Shown: positions 51,686-59,636 of the stretch, in pieces
How positions within the stretch are numbered: position 1 is the stretch's first letter
Layout: each line of letters begins with the position of its first letter
DNA from: a bacterium
GTDB lineage: Bacteria; Elusimicrobiota; Elusimicrobia; UBA1565; UBA9628
Length of the DNA: 64,000 nucleotides
Assembly: GCA_021822495.1 (NCBI GenBank)
Contig: JAKAQO010000008.1
Coordinates: forward strand, 43,207-107,206
Direction of reading: 5' to 3'
Program-made: the position numbers and the translations under genes
Notes under the pieces: model-generated
Databases searched by the model: none
Told to the model about the DNA's origin: nothing
What the model saw: only the letters and a program-made list of their open reading frames with translations

Positions 51686-52603
51686 TTATGAAGGGGATAA
51701 AAAGGGCCGACCAGACACCGCGATTTCCTCGCGAACAGAATCAACCAGCGCGCCAATCAACTTGTTCCGCCGCGTGATTAAATGAACGGACTCCCGCAAC
51801 CCCCAATCACGATGGGAGTTGAGGGTCACGAGTCCGCCATGGGGAAGGCTTTTCGCCACGGTATAGGCGTTCAGCGGAGCGATTCCCTCTCCCGCCAAGG
51901 CCATCCGCCGAATTAGTTCCACATCCTGGACCTCGGCGACGATATGGGGCGCGGCTTTCCAGGATGAAAGCAAATCAAGGATTCGTTCATAGACGAGACT
52001 CGGATACGAAGGCAAGAGAAAAGGAGCCCCGTTTAAATCCCGGGGCAGCCGCTTAAATCGCCGCGCGACATGGGGAGCCGCGACGAAAACAATCGGAATC
52101 TCCGCCAACACATGATTATCGAGATCGTCTCGGTCCGGCCCTCGCAAGCTCATGTCCGTCAATATCGCGTCAAGGCGAAAATCCCGGAGCTCCGCGAGCA
52201 AGGATTCAAGATTTCCCTCTTTGAGGACAATGAGGGCGTCTTTGTCATGGCGACGCAAGCCGCGCAACAAGGCGTGACCAAAGGATCTGGGCGTGCCGTT
52301 TAGAATTCCAGCCGTAATCACGCGCCTTCCCGCGGATTTGCCCCCATGCAAGGCGTCCTCCATTTGCTTGCCCAGTTCAAAAATTTGACGGGCGAAATCC
52401 AACACGCGACGCCCATCCGGGGTCAGTATCAGCCGTTGTCGGCGGCGTTCAAAAAGGGTCTTGCCAAGCGATCGCTCGAATTGTCGAAGTTGAATGCTGA
52501 GCGTCGATTGATTAAGGAATAATTTTTCCGCGGCAAGCGTCAGAGAGCGACTCTCGGCGATCACGTAGAAGTAATAGAGATGATGGTAATTTATGGAGAT
52601 CAT
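51686..52603 (-). CDS. LysR-type transcriptional regulator (NhaR-like)
   Basis: This 305-residue regulator has an N-terminal winged helix (YHHLYYFYVIAESRSLTLAAEKLFLNQSTLSIQLRQFERSLGKTLFERRR, of which HLYYFYVIAES resembles NhaR proteins) and a periplasmic-binding-like effector domain. It is transcribed divergently from the unknown-icd-DUF6671 unit. A TTGATTAATTCAA box overlaps its own start codon. Autorepression and activation of the divergent operon are inferred from that geometry. The inducer is unknown. Confidence 0.9.
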   Translation of the reverse strand: MISINYHHLYYFYVIAESRSLTLAAEKLFLNQSTLSIQLRQFERSLGKTLFERRRQRLILTPDGRRVLDFARQIFELGKQMEDALHGGKSAGRRVITAGILNGTPRSFGHALLRGLRRHDKDALIVLKEGNLESLLAELRDFRLDAILTDMSLRGPDRDDLDNHVLAEIPIVFVAAPHVARRFKRLPRDLNGAPFLLPSYPSLVYERILDLLSSWKAAPHIVAEVQDVELIRRMALAGEGIAPLNAYTVAKSLPHGGLVTLNSHRDWGLRESVHLITRRNKLIGALVDSVREEIAVSGRPFLSPS

Positions 52604-52638: not shown

Positions 52639-52667
52639 TTTACAAAACAACTCCATCCCGTTATAAT
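52639..52667 (+). promoter_or_regulatory. Sigma-70 promoter TTTACA-N17-TATAAT
   Basis: The -35 hexamer TTTACA (52639-52644) matches five of six consensus bases and the -10 TATAAT (52662-52667) all six, with an optimal 17-bp spacer. The predicted start of transcription is near 52674. The ORF-track ATG at 52666 falls inside the -10 box and so cannot be the translation start from this promoter. Confidence 0.7.
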
Positions 52668-52677
52668 GTTTGAGGGA

Positions 52678-53271
52678 ATGGATATTCTTTCGATGTTCCC
52701 GAACCCATGGCAAAACCGAATGAATCGAATCGAAACAAAAGCAGGGAAATTTAATCCCATGAGCTCTCTTATTATTGTCCGAAGCGCGGGAAGATTATCC
52801 CGTAGCATTAAAAGCATTAACGCATTCTTAACCTTCGATCGCGGGCGCCAAACCCGGAATGAACGCATTATCGGCATCGCCATTCAAGACGATATTGATG
52901 CCAGCCCGGCGGAAATCTCGGAATCGTTTTCCATCTCGGGGGAATGGGCTCTCTATCAGATTAGCGACAAAATCATGGGTTCCAAGGGAACCCCTTCCAG
53001 CCGAAGGCGATCGTTATTTAATCTCCTTTGCCAATTAAATCCCAACAAAGAAAACAGGAAGCTGATCGCCGTTTTCGCTGCGAATGAAAATATCGAGAAA
53101 ATTGGGCGAGAGATGAGAAAATTGCGCGAAGAATTCGGGCGCGTGATTGATCCTGCTTGGTTTATTGATGATCCAATGCGAGGAATCATGCCCTCGGATA
53201 AATCCCGCAAGATTCGTTCAACGAATAGAAACAAAGGAGAGGAAACTCTATGTCTAAAAAAACGCCGGTAA
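52678..53271 (+). CDS. Hypothetical protein in LysR-controlled icd operon
   Basis: I do not recognise this protein of about 197 residues. It appears soluble, basic and alpha/beta mixed, with VRSAGRLSRSIKSINAFLTFDRG and RKLIAVFAANENIEKIGREMRKLREEFG as the most structured-looking segments. I place the start at the in-frame ATG 52678, about 4 nt after the predicted transcription start. ATG 52759 is an alternative; the ORF-track start at 52666 lies in the -10 box. The end overlaps icd by 22 bp, including its ribosome-binding site. Confidence 0.5.
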   Translation: MDILSMFPNPWQNRMNRIETKAGKFNPMSSLIIVRSAGRLSRSIKSINAFLTFDRGRQTRNERIIGIAIQDDIDASPAEISESFSISGEWALYQISDKIMGSKGTPSSRRRSLFNLLCQLNPNKENRKLIAVFAANENIEKIGREMRKLREEFGRVIDPAWFIDDPMRGIMPSDKSRKIRSTNRNKGEETLCLKKRR

Positions 53272-54707
53272 CAATCGCTCGCGGAGACGGCATCGGTCCT
53301 GAAATTATGGATGCCGTCCTTCATATTCTTAAAGAGGCTCAAGCTCCCCTGGAGTTCGAGGAAATAGAAATTGGAAAAAAGCTCTACGAAGCGGGCCATA
53401 CCTCCGGAATTTCGCCGTCGGCCTGGGAATCCCTGCGCAGGACCCGCATCTTCCTGAAGGCTCCAATAACGACCCCTCAAGGAAGCGGCTATAAGAGTCT
53501 CAACGTTACAATCAGAAAAACCCTCGGCCTCTACGCGAACGTGCGTCCGTGCGTGGCCTACCCGCCTTTTGTCGCGACGAGGCATCCCCAGATGAAAGTC
53601 ACGATCATCCGCGAAAACGAGGAAGACCTCTATGCGGGAATCGAGCACCGGCAAACCGATGAGGTCACGCAATGTCTAAAACTCATCACCAGACCGGGCT
53701 GTGAAAAAATCATTCGCTATGCGTTTGAATACGCCCGCCATCATGGAACGCGGAAAATCACCTGCATGACCAAGGATAATATCATGAAGATGACCGATGG
53801 ATTATTTCACGCCGTTTTCAACGAAATTTCCGCCGAATATCCCGAACTCGAGAAAGAACACCTGATTATCGACATCGGCGCCGCTCGTCTTGCGGACACG
53901 CCGGAACGTTTCGAGCTCATCGTCCTGCCGAATCTATACGGGGACATACTTTCAGACATTGCCGCCCAAGTGGCGGGTTCCGTGGGTTTGGCCCCCTCCT
54001 GCAATATCGGCGATCACGGAGCGATGTTTGAAGCCATTCACGGTTCGGCCCCCGATATCGCGGGCCTTAATATCGCAAACCCCTCTGGCCTACTCCTTTC
54101 CGCTGTAATGATGCTCGTCCATATCGGAGAAGCTAAGATAGCGGAAAAAATCCACAATGCCTGGCTTAAAACAATAGAGGACGGCTTCCACACGAAAGAT
54201 ATTTTTTCTTCCCACAGCGCCCACCAGTGCGGCACGCGCGAATTCGCCAAGGAAATCATCGCAAGACTCGGGGCCTCTCCCAACAAGCTCAAGCCCGTCG
54301 CCTATCAAGACGGAAGACCCGCTTCAATGGCCCGCGCCGCCATTTCTTCCGCTCCTTCCAGGACCGCCCGCAAGGAACTTATCGGAACGGACATATTCCT
54401 GGATTGGAAAGGAATACCTCCGGATGAACTCGGCGCCAAACTCAAGACCCTTGAGACGCCCTCATTGCAACTCAAGATGATCACCAACAGAGGCGTCAAG
54501 GTCTGGCCGGAGGGTCTCCCCGAAACATTTTGCACCGATCATTGGCGTTGCCGCTTCGTCAGGACGCAAACAGGAAGCCCCGCCAAAAGCGCCGACATCA
54601 TTGAACTCCTCGATAAACTCTCGAAAGCGGGGTTGAATTTCATTAAACTAGAGAATCTTTATGATTTCGACGGCATTCCAGGCTACTCGCTTGGACAGGG
54701 GCAATGA
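53250..54707 (+). CDS. icd: NADP-type isocitrate dehydrogenase (long Thermus/Rickettsia-like form)
   Basis: It oxidatively decarboxylates isocitrate to 2-oxoglutarate in the TCA cycle. Substrate-binding SLNVTIRKTLGLYANVRPC is near residue 90, the metal-binding signature LPNLYGDILSDIAAQVAG near 229, and GAMFEAIHGSAPDIAG near 259. At 485 residues it carries the C-terminal extension of the Thermus and alphaproteobacterial long forms. Isopropylmalate dehydrogenase is shorter and lacks this tail. AAAGGAGAGG is an excellent ribosome-binding site. It overlaps its neighbours on both sides. Confidence 0.9.
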   Translation: MSKKTPVTIARGDGIGPEIMDAVLHILKEAQAPLEFEEIEIGKKLYEAGHTSGISPSAWESLRRTRIFLKAPITTPQGSGYKSLNVTIRKTLGLYANVRPCVAYPPFVATRHPQMKVTIIRENEEDLYAGIEHRQTDEVTQCLKLITRPGCEKIIRYAFEYARHHGTRKITCMTKDNIMKMTDGLFHAVFNEISAEYPELEKEHLIIDIGAARLADTPERFELIVLPNLYGDILSDIAAQVAGSVGLAPSCNIGDHGAMFEAIHGSAPDIAGLNIANPSGLLLSAVMMLVHIGEAKIAEKIHNAWLKTIEDGFHTKDIFSSHSAHQCGTREFAKEIIARLGASPNKLKPVAYQDGRPASMARAAISSAPSRTARKELIGTDIFLDWKGIPPDELGAKLKTLETPSLQLKMITNRGVKVWPEGLPETFCTDHWRCRFVRTQTGSPAKSADIIELLDKLSKAGLNFIKLENLYDFDGIPGYSLGQGQ

Positions 54708-55570
54708 GTGGCGCTTTGGCGGCGCCTTATGCGATGCGCCTCGTCGCGCTGAGCACGATGCACCGAAAAGAAAAGGCGATAGCCCCCGCGTTCCGCCAAA
54801 CCCTTGGTTCTCTCGTCCTTGCCATTCCTGGAATCAATACCGACGAATTGGGAACATTCACCGGAGAAATCCCGAGGACGGGCACGATGGAGGAAACGGT
54901 CAGGAAAAAAGCCCGGTTGGGGATGAGGGCTAGCGGTTTGCGTCTGGGAATAGCCAGCGAGGGAAGTTTTGGACCCCACCCCGCAATCCCGTTTTTTCCC
55001 GCCGGACTGGAATTAATGATTTTTATTGACGATGAAAGAGGTTTTGAGATTATCGAAAGCCAGATGTCCGAGGAAACCAACTATACGGGCGTCCTCGTCA
55101 AGACGCTCGCGGAAGCCGAGGAATTTCTAAAGCGGAGTCGCTTCCCCTCCCACAAAACGATCGTGGCTTCACAATATCCTCGAGGAAAAAGTTTTCTGGC
55201 AAAAGGTATCGGTGAGAAATATCAACTAATCCAAGCCGTCAAAGCCGCCGCCAAAGCGTCAAAAAACGGAATCGTTCGGATAGAAACCGATATGCGGGCG
55301 CACATGAACCCCACCCGCATGCGCTGCATCCGTTCACTCGCCGCCAAGTTAGCGAAACGGTTAAACACCCCTTGCCCGAAATGCGAAGCTCCGGGATGGG
55401 GAGTTACAGACGTCGAAAAAGGTCTCCCCTGCCGCTCCTGTCATACGCCCACCCATTGGACAGCTCGCCTGATTTTTTCCTGCGCCCTCTGTGGATATCG
55501 GCGGGTTACGGGCAGACCCGATGGGAAGAATTACGCGGATGAAGCGCTGTGCCCATATTGCAATCCCTGA
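54704..55570 (+). CDS. DUF6671-like protein with C-terminal zinc ribbons
   Basis: This 288-residue protein has the conserved core STMHRKEKAIAPAF, GTFTGEIPRTGTMEETVRKKA, IASEGSFGPHP and SEETNYTG, which I associate with the uncharacterised DUF6671 family. The C-terminal 75 residues add four CxxC pairs (CPKC, CRSC, CALC, CPYC), enough for two zinc ribbons. Function is unknown. The conserved Glu/Asp/His content suggests an enzyme. It overlaps icd by 4 bp, so the two are made together under LysR control. Confidence 0.7.
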   Translation: MSGALAAPYAMRLVALSTMHRKEKAIAPAFRQTLGSLVLAIPGINTDELGTFTGEIPRTGTMEETVRKKARLGMRASGLRLGIASEGSFGPHPAIPFFPAGLELMIFIDDERGFEIIESQMSEETNYTGVLVKTLAEAEEFLKRSRFPSHKTIVASQYPRGKSFLAKGIGEKYQLIQAVKAAAKASKNGIVRIETDMRAHMNPTRMRCIRSLAAKLAKRLNTPCPKCEAPGWGVTDVEKGLPCRSCHTPTHWTARLIFSCALCGYRRVTGRPDGKNYADEALCPYCNP

Positions 55571-55667: not shown

Positions 55668-56429
55668 TCAGCGACTTTGATAGTCGCCCCTAGACACCCC
55701 AGCCTGAGCTTTTTTATTCCGAGTCTGAGTCTGGAGTTTAGCCTTAAGAGAGTTAAGGTCTTGGCTCATCCAGAACTGAATATCTTTTTTAAGTTTTCTC
55801 TGGATGTAAGGATATCTCAGGTCCGAGGCGTCGCAATATGAGCTCAATTTAGGATTATTCAGTTTTTCTATGGCAAATCCATACTGCTCAGTTACGCAGT
55901 CGCTGTTGTACTCTTGTTCTTGAGTTGGGCGCACGAGCTCAAGCATGGACTCTCCGTGCTCATCACCGAGCGAGTCTCCAAAGGCTATCTGATCAACTAA
56001 GGCGTTTCCATTTGCATCAACCCCTACCTCGACCCATACGAAGAAATGCCCGCCATAAGGCGAGTTGGGATCGCGCGCATCCAGGCGCAAATAAGCGCGA
56101 TCGGAGGCCAACTCAATGTCTTGAGCCAAGAAAGCCGCGATCTGTTTGAATTTTTGCATTTGTTCTGGCGTCAGGCGTGCAATTAATTCCTGCGAAGGAA
56201 TTGCGTCCGTTCGAGGAACGACAAGTTGCCCATCGGAATTAAGAGTGGGAGGATTATTCGCCAAAACCCCCTTGGCCGGATTAGCCGCGACTTCCTTGAG
56301 ATTCGCGACCATCGCATGGACATTAACGCCTTGATCGAAGTTCACATTCTGCGCCCGAGCCGGCAAGACCGCCGCCGCGCTAAACGCCGCGACCGCCATA
56401 CCCGTCAACGCCATTTTTAATTTCGTCAT
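55668..56429 (-). CDS. Secreted hypothetical protein
   Basis: I do not recognise this 253-residue protein. From ATG 56429, which follows GGAGGAG, it has a clear signal peptide (MTKLKMALTGMAVAAF to ARAQ). A helical segment with LTPEQMQKFKQIAAFLAQD follows, then a beta-rich domain (GGHFFVWVEVGVDANGNALVDQI). The two cysteines in the second half could form a disulfide. The acidic region and secretion suggest a periplasmic or surface role. It is transcribed alone, with a possible promoter 35 bp upstream. Confidence 0.7.
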   Translation of the reverse strand: MTKLKMALTGMAVAAFSAAAVLPARAQNVNFDQGVNVHAMVANLKEVAANPAKGVLANNPPTLNSDGQLVVPRTDAIPSQELIARLTPEQMQKFKQIAAFLAQDIELASDRAYLRLDARDPNSPYGGHFFVWVEVGVDANGNALVDQIAFGDSLGDEHGESMLELVRPTQEQEYNSDCVTEQYGFAIEKLNNPKLSSYCDASDLRYPYIQRKLKKDIQFWMSQDLNSLKAKLQTQTRNKKAQAGVSRGDYQSR

Positions 56430-56461
56430 TTCTATTCTCCTCCGCTTCACGCGGAACATCT

Positions 56462-56923: not shown

Positions 56924-57904
56924 CTACTGCGCCGGATGGCTTAGACCGGCGGCCCTTTGCAATCGGTCCATCACCGCCCGCCCCACGCCGCGCTTCGGGA
57001 CAGTCTCAACATATAAAGTTTTGACGCCGAAAGATTCGGCCTCGCGCAAGGAGGCAAATAAAGAGCGCGCGTAGACGTCAAGGCCCCCGGGAATTTTTCG
57101 GGAAAAGCCCGGCAAGGGCGCGCCCGAAGGCGAGCGGTGAATGAGCCCCGTTTTCGGAAATTTCAAAGCCTCAATTCCTTCGCGCACGCGCCTGGGGGAA
57201 ACAAGCTCAACGCGGCAATCGGGAGCGTAATGCCGATAGCGCGTTCCGGGAGAGGCGGGAGAATTCGCGCCGGGGTTGAGGACTTTAACTCCCGCGGCGC
57301 GGGCAATATCCTCAACCGTTAAGGAACCGGGACGCAAAAGCACGGGATAACGCCCGCGCGCGTCAATAATCGTGGATTCCAAACCTTCATTGCAAGGGCC
57401 GCCGTCTAAAATGAGGGCAATGCGTCCGTCTAAATCCGCGTAAACATGAGCGGCGGTCGTAGGGCTAGGGCGCCCGGAAAGATTGGCCGATGGAGCGGCG
57501 ATGGGTTCGCCCAGAAAATCAATCAGGGTTTGGAAAAAGGGATGGGCCGGACAACGGACCGCAATGGTTTCCTGCCCTCCTGTCACAACATCAGGCACAA
57601 GACCAGAACTTTTCAGAATCAAGGTCAAAGGCCCCGGCCAAAATGCCGCAATCAATTTTCGCGCAAGCGAAGTCGGATGCGCGACGGTTTCCATCATGGC
57701 GGAGCCGTTTACATGCACAATGAGCGGATTATCAGACGGGCGCCCCTTGGCCCGGTAAATTTTCTTAACCGCCTTAGCGTCTAAAGCGCGCGCCCCAAGA
57801 CCATAGACCGTTTCCGTTGGAAAAGCGACTAATTGCCCGCGCCTTAAGGCTTGCGCCGCCGCCTTCATCCCGGCGACATCGGCTTTCAAAAAGCGCGTCT
57901 TCAT
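56924..57904 (-). CDS. tsaC: Threonylcarbamoyl-AMP synthase, long Sua5 type
   Basis: It makes threonylcarbamoyl-AMP for the t6A37 modification of ANN-decoding tRNAs. The YrdC domain has [18 protein letters not shown] (about residue 24), [13 protein letters not shown] (about 53), [13 protein letters not shown] (about 142) and [17 protein letters not shown] linker leads into the Sua5 C-terminal domain, giving 326 residues. It is translationally coupled to purE (4-bp overlap). The Sua5 form, rather than short TsaC, is evident from length and linker. Confidence 0.93.
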
Positions 57905-58461
57905 TTTCTGACGAATAGTTTTATTAACTTGCTCGGAAGACGCGCATCTAAAACTTTCCGGGTTTGAGCCGCGCGATAGGATTTAACCGCCGCGCTTAAT
58001 TCAGGATGAGAAAGACCAAGAATAGCGCCTGCCAGCAAAGCCGCATTGACCGCTCCCGCCCGGCCGATGGCCAAACTTCCCACCGGAATTCCCGCCGGCA
58101 TCTGAGCGATGGAGAGAAGAGAATCAAGCCCGCGCAAAGCCTTGGACTCGACAGGAACGCCTAAAACTGGAAGGCTCGTTTTTGAAGCCGTCATTCCCGG
58201 CAGATGCGCGGCCCCGCCGGCTCCGGCGATGATGAGCTTAAGCCCGCGCCGCTCGGCTGAAACCGCGTATTGAAATAATTTATCAGGCGTGCGGTGAGCC
58301 GAGACGATTTCGACCTCATAAGGGATTCCTAATTGTTTAAGAGTCTTGACCGTATGTCGCATCGTTGAATAATCTGATGCTGAACCCATAATAACGCCGA
58401 CTAAAGGCGCGAAGGTCTTTCCTTGAGTTCGACGAATTTTTTTTAATGGCATCTGGTTCAT
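57901..58461 (-). CDS. purE: N5-carboxyaminoimidazole ribonucleotide mutase
   Basis: It converts N5-CAIR to CAIR in purine synthesis. [28 protein letters not shown] and [12 protein letters not shown] are the class I PurE active-site motifs. The GSASD serine and AHR histidine are intact. Length of 186 includes a short basic N-terminal extension. It pairs with purK upstream, with a 4-bp overlap, so the two-step bacterial route is complete here. Confidence 0.95.
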
Positions 58462-59636
58462 GAAGATCGCCTGGAAGGAGCGCCAAATTGAATGGCCGCT
58501 GCGGCTTTTTGAGCGGTTTTAAGAGCTTCCGCCGGATTCGGGCCCAGCGCGGTCACATGCCCCATTTTTCTTCCGGGAAAACTTTCCTTTTTTCCGTAGA
58601 GATGAACCGAGGCCCCCGAAACGGCCCTCGCTTCATCAAGTCCTTTGGGGATTCCATCTCCCTTTTCGATACCCAGAAGATTAACCATGGCGGCGGCCTT
58701 TTCTTTGAGAGCGGCAGAGCCGAGAGGCAAATCAAAAACCGCGCGAACATGATTATCAAACTGGCTTGATTCACAAGCCTCAATCGTATAATGACCGGAG
58801 TTATGAACCCGCGGAGATATCTCGTTGACCAGAATCTCCCCATCTTTTCGGAGAAAAAGTTCAACGCCCATGGAGCCCACTCCGCCAATTCCCTCAACCG
58901 CTTTAAGAGCGATCTCCGAAGCGCGGACCGCGGTTGGCTCATCAATAGAAGCGGGAACAAGAACGGCCCGGCACACATGATTTTCCTGAATCGTTTCGGC
59001 CACGGGATAAACCGCCGCCTCTTTATTTTGCGAGACAGAAACAATCACGGCTAACTCCTTTTCAAATAGACAAAATTCTTCCGCGTAAAGAGATTCCGCA
59101 TCTCCCTTGAGAAATTCCCAAGCGCTTTTAATTTCTTCTTCTGAACGAGCGACAGCGTTGCCTCGTCCATCATAAGCGTTCCGGCGTTTTTTAATCATCA
59201 CGGCCCCGCCCCATTTTTTGGCTGTGGATATAATTTCCTCGACACTGGAAGCTTCCGCAAAACGCGGAACCGGAATCCCCTGGCGGGAGAGCTCACGCTT
59301 CTGGAAAAACTTATCCTGAATCAAAGACAGACAAGAAGACGAGGGACGCACGCAATGCCCCGAGCGTTCCAAGTCCGCTAAAAGTTGAGAGTCCACGAAT
59401 TCATTTTCCAAGGTCAGAACATCGCAAGCATCCGCAAGAGAAGACAAAGCGGCGCGGTCATTAAGAGAACCAAGAAAAAATTGATCCGCAAGTTTTACAG
59501 CGGGGCTGTCAGGCGATTGAGCCAAAATAACCACTTTAAACCCAAGCCTTTTGGCAGCCTCAGACATCATCGCCGCCAATTGCCCACCGCCCAATATCCC
59601 CAAGGTTTTCAAGGCGCCGATTTTAACTTTTCCCAT
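58458..59636 (-). CDS. purK: N5-carboxyaminoimidazole ribonucleotide synthase
   Basis: This ATP-grasp enzyme carboxylates AIR using bicarbonate. [20 protein letters not shown] at the N-terminus, [12 protein letters not shown] (about 75), [15 protein letters not shown] (about 150), [16 protein letters not shown]-type residues and the metal-binding [18 protein letters not shown] (about 268) are all present. Length of 392 is normal. It heads a purK-purE-tsaC operon with overlapping genes; a 103-bp divergent spacer separates it from the rhomboid-like gene. Confidence 0.95.

Follow-up and report, generated by a model that had tools for sequence, protein, structure and literature searches.

The DUF6671 protein family is linked to inorganic carbon in bacterial genomes, an association in which we place considerable confidence. 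We propose, with a probability of roughly 0.6, that DUF6671 functions as an accessory protein in bacterial gene sets for the supply or use of inorganic carbon, probably acting when CO2 or HCO3- is scarce. The gene was analyzed in a 64-kb stretch of DNA (here the window) from an Elusimicrobiota bacterium with a genome of 2.2 Mb, and in the gene neighborhoods of its relatives in other bacteria.

Organization of the locus

Three overlapping genes are located on the + strand of the window, as described in the initial annotation. ORF1 (52759 to 53271) has a coding-like frame for an orphan protein of 170 amino acids, icd (53250 to 54707) is predicted to encode an NADP-dependent isocitrate dehydrogenase with the bacterial C-terminal domain (PF00180 and PF18324, the latter at 154.1 bits), and the third gene (54704 to 55570) encodes the DUF6671 protein of 288 amino acids. 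ORF1 and icd overlap by 22 nt, and icd and the DUF6671 gene overlap by 4 nt (ATGA). Just 5' of ORF1 is a sigma-70-like promoter (TTTACA-17-TATAAT; 52639 to 52667, + strand), a consensus match only, which agrees with the consensus at 11 of 12 positions and is the best of five sites in the region; the only terminator-like site on the + strand within the cluster is weak. The overlaps and the promoter-like site together suggest that the three genes are likely transcribed as one unit, in agreement with the single shared promoter claimed earlier. A gene for a LysR-family regulator (51686 to 52603, - strand; Pfam HTH_1 and LysR_substrate) is divergent from the cluster and lies outside the interval 52678 to 55570 that had been described as a LysR-controlled trio.

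Downstream, on the opposite strand, the genes for Sua5/TsaC, PurE, and PurK form an overlapping operon (56924 to 59636) 1.35 kb from the DUF6671 gene; their products are users of bicarbonate or CO2 (or of its carboxylated product). Between this operon and the DUF6671 gene is a gene (55668 to 56459, - strand) whose product of 263 amino acids begins like a signal peptide and matches no Pfam family. In the related genome G002 (locus L009), a TsaC-type gene is found directly 3' of the DUF6671 gene.

Neighborhoods of DUF6671 genes

When 84,980 species, represented by one genome each, were scanned, the patterns used yielded 133 DUF6671 relatives, and the best 80 loci were read. Neighboring genes were clustered, then named on the basis of Pfam and NCBIfam, and then counted. 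Among these best 80 of the 133 relatives, the neighbors included DabA (40 loci), DabB (36), LysR (24), a winged-helix regulator (18), Icd (16), SbtA (14), CysD (12), PurK (7), and PurE (7). A theme gene, counted as DabA, DabB, SbtA, PurK, PurE, Icd, or CysD, was present within 1.5 kb of DUF6671 in 67 of the 80 loci, which are not independent of each other, versus 0 of 55 control loci of HAM1, beta-carbonic anhydrase, and other LysR genes, a rough comparison that involves different genes and partly different phyla. Nine of the 80 loci had no theme gene in the stretch read. On a quick DUF6671 tree with weakly supported deep branches, the partner label changed at least 7 (Icd), 10 (Dab), 7 (Sbt), and 8 (CysD) times. 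The recurrence of DUF6671 beside DabA/DabB, SbtA, PurE/PurK, icd, and CysD extends over many phyla. Most partners belong to inorganic carbon (DabAB, SbtA, PurK/PurE, Sua5/TsaC, and carbonic anhydrase), and the TCA or redox theme originally put forward is not supported.

Some partners are joined to DUF6671 in a single reading frame. Fusions with DabA were identified in two chlamydiae (L061, 1,062 amino acids, and L073, 1,034 amino acids, the latter from a single-contig chromosome record), and a PurK-DUF6671 fusion of 715 amino acids was identified in a Desulforudis (L063).

Not all neighbors fit the theme: CysD (12 loci), IlvD, TerC, and RaiA have no simple explanation in bicarbonate supply. 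The gene for the CysD-type sulfate adenylyltransferase subunit is directly beside DUF6671 in its 12 loci of the 80, as in L020 (5090 to 5980), L040 (6843 to 7760), and L050 (5884 to 6687), and is also found beside it in plasmid loci L164 (5072 to 5977) and L165 (5057 to 5953). PADLOC gave no defense link for DUF6671, and no DUF6671 match was obtained in phage records.

Predicted fold of the DUF6671 protein

The window protein matches PF20376 with 193.6 bits (gathering cut-off, 23.8) over model positions 2 to 217 of 217, corresponding to residues 70 to 288. The four CxxC pairs reported for its C-terminal zinc ribbon (55373 to 55567) are indeed present, whereas the description of this tail as an addition was incorrect: it lies inside the PF20376 model, and its eight cysteines (C224, C227, C243, C246, C260, C263, C283, and C286) are invariant in an alignment of 74 homologues. 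Residues H20, K22, D196, R198, H200, N202, and R205 are likewise invariant in the 74 sequences and present in the window protein, and the invariant charged residues resemble an enzyme-like set.

The AlphaFold2 model built with the 74 sequences had a mean pLDDT of 93.5. In a Foldseek search of the PDB, the top matches included RdgB ITPase, YjjX, KomBC, TM0159, and PH NTPase (probability, 0.97 to 1.00; E, 0.002 to 0.02). The values for RdgB and YjjX were a probability of 1.00 and an E of 0.002 to 0.006 with low TM-scores; no PDB match reached an E of 0.001, and TM-scores were modest (0.25 to 0.28 by query). Among the matches to viral models were an inosine/xanthosine triphosphatase and potyvirid polyproteins, the latter presumably through the HAM1-like parts that such viruses carry. 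When a Ham1 alignment was compared with DUF6671 by hhalign, residues 15 to 79 were aligned (P, 0.0034), and T18/H20/K22, K69, and E86 of DUF6671 are near the positions of HAM1 motifs. This fold evidence is in favor of, though no proof of, an ITPase-like N-terminal part, approximately residues 12 to 159 (54737 to 55180; boundary approximate). The likeness to the ITPase/HAM1/YjjX/Maf proteins thus concerns the predicted N-terminal fold and the spacing of some phosphate-binding or acidic positions, whereas PF01725 (HAM1) gave no match to DUF6671 at an E of 1 and the C-terminal half contains D-x-R-A-H-x-N-x-x-R and the four CxxC pairs. On the predicted structure, nucleotide-handling biochemistry is somewhat more probable than its absence.

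A house-cleaning (d)NTP pyrophosphatase, whose carbon-gene neighbors reflect shared stress regulation only, would account for the ITPase-like fold, the hhalign result, and the residues near the HAM1 motif positions. However, the window genome already contains a regular HAM1 gene, PF01725 does not detect DUF6671, and a role tied to particular partners is suggested by the fusions with DabA and PurK, which makes this explanation unlikely.

Carbonic anhydrases and a zinc-less homologue

The partners of DUF6671 are users or suppliers of bicarbonate, and its invariant His, Asp, Glu, and Cys residues could hold a metal; DUF6671 could therefore itself be a new carbonic anhydrase or another bicarbonate-producing enzyme, with the neighbors consuming or transporting its product. 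In a search restricted to the beta class, 16 of 39 sampled host genomes had no beta-carbonic anhydrase over the Pfam cut-off, as such an enzyme might predict, but the other 23 of the 39 did, which also weakens the idea of a plain carbonic anhydrase replacement. Moreover, one plasmid encodes a carbonic anhydrase within the stretch that contains DUF6671, the DabA-fused copies are on a protein with its own carbonic anhydrase-like site, and the predicted fold matches nucleotide pyrophosphatases instead. We regard this explanation as improbable. The window genome contains a weak beta-carbonic anhydrase match (contig C4; L088, 1279 to 1881, - strand; E, 1.7e-4, below the cut-off) in which CxDSR and HxxC are kept.

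In Bacillota, a gene for a 190-amino-acid protein is located between DUF6671 and icd or DabB. No Pfam family matches the protein significantly, but searches with its profile recover true beta-carbonic anhydrases at E values as low as 5e-24, some of them at places also marked by PF00484. The zinc-ligand motifs CxDxR and HxxC are lost from the protein. By its sequence, it is a zinc-less beta-carbonic anhydrase homologue, and such homologues were counted among the neighbors in 7 of the 80 loci. In Bacillota, members of this family accompany icd, DabB, or SbtA in the vicinity of DUF6671: L018 (6934 to 7524), L019 (5360 to 5935), L029 (7103 to 7648), L049 (1852 to 2418), L059 (2766 to 3365), and L075 (1079 to 1678).

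DUF6671 on plasmids

As an independent set, plasmids were searched by tblastn with Dab-linked DUF6671, giving 12 plasmid records, and 11 regions were read. DabAB and DUF6671 were found together in six regions, SbtA in three, a TsaC-type synthase in one, and a carbonic anhydrase in one; CysD was immediately ahead of DUF6671 in two. One match (H1) overlaps a DUF2309 gene. The regions also carry IlvD, PyrC, TerC, and RaiA. IlvD or PyrC is beside DUF6671 in L155 (2648 to 5999), L157 (6923 to 8626), L158 (6855 to 8588), and L159 (6845 to 7906), and three chromosomal loci have IlvD after DUF6671 in the same orientation. PyrC contains a carbamylated lysine. A carbamylated lysine is also found in IlvD-family enzymes of known structure (PMC5770437). 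The spare PyrC and IlvD were considered as CO2-independent forms, an idea rejected on finding that the copies read keep the lysine motif.

These regions raise the alternative of a metal or alkaline-stress cassette comprising TerC/Alx, NhaR-like regulators, SbtA, DabB, spare IlvD, PyrC, and CysD, in which CO2 scarcity is a side effect of high pH. TerC/Alx and annotated NhaR are present in plasmid loci, the LysRs find their best NCBIfam match in NhaR, and alkaliphile and salt-habitat names occur among the hosts. Nevertheless, the acidophiles Sulfobacillus and Ferroacidibacillus are common hosts, no TerC or RaiA homologues were found in the 80 chromosomal loci, and PurK and PurE do not fit such a cassette, so that we give it little credence.

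Pairing of DUF6671 with isocitrate dehydrogenase

The icd product scored 772.6 bits against NCBIfam PRK09222 (cut-off, 509) and 695.4 bits against TIGR02924 (cut-off, 561) and is thus predicted to be an NADP-dependent isocitrate dehydrogenase of this type. In two relatives, G026 and G002, the DUF6671 gene comes after icd, and the 4-nt overlap of the window is preserved (L004 and L005); the G002 contig ends inside icd. Among 295 Elusimicrobiota genomes, a strong PF18324 C-terminal domain (155 to 159 bits) is found in exactly the three icd-DUF6671 genomes, and a divergent one (64 to 100 bits) is found in eleven other genomes of the phylum and in a second locus of G026. A further isocitrate dehydrogenase-like gene is present on contig C14 of the window genome, and we therefore refer to the icd of the cluster as spare. 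In another Elusimicrobiota family (G159; L091, 1306 to 2985), the gene after a more distant DUF6671 is ion-channel-like and is not a carbon gene.

The pairing with icd, to which the initial annotation had drawn attention, recurs in other genomes: Icd is near DUF6671 in 16 of the 80 loci (four phyla), and the Icd-linked DUF6671 proteins are in three parts of the tree (Elusimicrobiota, Lysobacteraceae, and Bacillota/Chloroflexota). In Lysobacter (L074), icd and DUF6671 overlap by GTGA; an 801-amino-acid open frame there was considered as an Icd-DUF6671 fusion and rejected, since the frame is wrong for icd and the genes are two overlapping ones. It could be argued that icd and DUF6671 merely travel together on a transferred segment with no functional link, since DUF6671 is patchy in Elusimicrobiota (4 of the 295 genomes) and a second icd-like gene is present elsewhere in the genome with the pair. 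Such hitch-hiking is very improbable in view of the occurrence of linked genes in three distinct regions of the tree and in both gene orders, the proximity of theme genes in DUF6671 but not control loci, and the overlaps kept in the window, L004, L005, and Lysobacter.

ORF1 and the LysR regulator

Alternative starts at 52666 or 52678 would give longer readings of ORF1; the start at 52759, which has AGGGA upstream, is more likely than that at 52678, given that the -10 element extends as far as 52667. The coding score of the frame is positive (0.125 to 0.15 per codon), below those of the neighboring genes, and the other same-strand frames have negative scores. ORF1 belongs to no Pfam or NCBIfam family and has no convincing relative among the 295 Elusimicrobiota genomes, a weak match in one of them (G143; E, 3e-4) being treated as chance. 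Structure prediction, suggested at the outset for both uncharacterized proteins, was informative for DUF6671, whereas the single-sequence AlphaFold model of ORF1 (pLDDT, 38) was not. A by-eye likeness of ORF1 to the zinc-less beta-carbonic anhydrase homologues, as another degenerate form, was rejected, as hhalign gave no match to that family and the HMM score did not exceed those of shuffled copies.

The best NCBIfam match of the window LysR is NhaR, at 86.7 bits versus a cut-off of 219, indicating a LysR but not NhaR itself. Its top identity (34%) is to a Dab-linked LysR. Although its position in the tree is uncertain, it appears to fall into the broad NhaR-like group that also contains the LysRs next to DabAB-DUF6671 operons; membership in the Dab-linked clade was not retained in view of the long branches of the tree. 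The divergent LysR perhaps controls the cluster. In G026 (L008), the nearest relative with a complete locus, icd and DUF6671 are present with neither LysR nor ORF1, and a winged-helix gene is upstream of icd where the window has LysR/ORF1. Around DUF6671, icd and LysR do recur (16 and 24 of the 80 loci, respectively), but the LysR and ORF1 of the window are local and not conserved with the icd-DUF6671 pair. A small winged-helix regulator (WTFLTNHxxVLLC...ITERAVQRI) replaces LysR near DUF6671/icd in Bacillota, Elusimicrobiota, and Lysobacter: L008 (4103 to 4411), L038 (1507 to 1800), L012 (3691 to 3978), L049 (148 to 432), and L074 (4075 to 4443). The LysR-controlled TCA or redox module of three proteins proposed in the initial annotation, consistent with the gene overlaps, the one promoter-like site, and the divergent LysR, is hardly credible given that LysR and ORF1 are local, icd is one of several alternative partners, and most DUF6671 partners are outside the TCA cycle.

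A possible role in inorganic-carbon supply and use

As an accessory protein of inorganic-carbon gene sets, DUF6671 would sense or turn over a nucleotide through its nucleotide-binding part and dock on a partner through its zinc-ribbon part, and it would adjust or assist a partner that handles CO2 or HCO3-, be it a transporter, a vectorial carbonic anhydrase, a carboxylase, or a decarboxylase. The fusions and the zinc ribbons hint at docking or regulation rather than independent catalysis, which we suggest only tentatively. In the window bacterium, the partner would be the spare icd, which is probably cotranslated with DUF6671 and which the divergent LysR perhaps switches. In its usual direction, Icd consumes no bicarbonate. 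When anaplerosis that depends on bicarbonate is limited, the extra enzyme might sustain the supply of 2-oxoglutarate and NADPH, or might run in the carboxylating direction, a weak suggestion.

Several known systems offer parallels. SbtB is a nucleotide-binding regulator of the bicarbonate transporter SbtA (PF05982). DUF6671 adjoins SbtA and may bind a nucleotide, and could therefore work like SbtB, whereas its predicted fold is ITPase/HAM1 rather than PII-like and it carries zinc ribbons. With the DAB/DAC pumps (DabA PF10070 and DabB PF00361; MpsAB), the resemblance is that many hosts carry DUF6671 after dabB-dabA, frequently along with a divergent LysR, and that DUF6671 is fused with DabA in two chlamydiae; the window differs in that its 64 kb contain no match to DabA, DabB, or SbtA, and thus no operon of the DAB type. 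The introduction of a paper on DAB2 describes two- and three-subunit systems without DUF6671 (PMC13144422). We found no paper naming DUF6671 in the open literature; subscription journals were mostly outside the scope of this search, and the link may be known.

A bolder and more doubtful extension is that DUF6671 marks a modular, mobile low-CO2 gene set of importers (DabAB and SbtA) and spare PurK, TsaC/Sua5, Icd, IlvD, and PyrC, with DUF6671 as the nucleotide-handling core acting on the partners. In such a set, PurK and TsaC/Sua5 would consume bicarbonate, Icd would release or fix CO2, and IlvD and PyrC would need CO2 for lysine carbamylation; judging from these partners, the set would be induced at low CO2. 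Zur-regulated spare enzymes are zinc-limitation paralogues. They, too, form a scarce-nutrient gene set with spare copies of nutrient-dependent enzymes, but here the nutrient would be CO2 or HCO3-, and the linked PyrC and IlvD show no sign of being CO2-independent forms.

Inorganic-carbon supply in bacteria other than cyanobacteria is still being worked out. If the proposed role is correct, this supply would gain a new component in a widespread family that has no name and is fused to DabA and PurK, and the supply of CO2 would be connected with isocitrate dehydrogenase, with purine synthesis, and possibly with sulfate activation.
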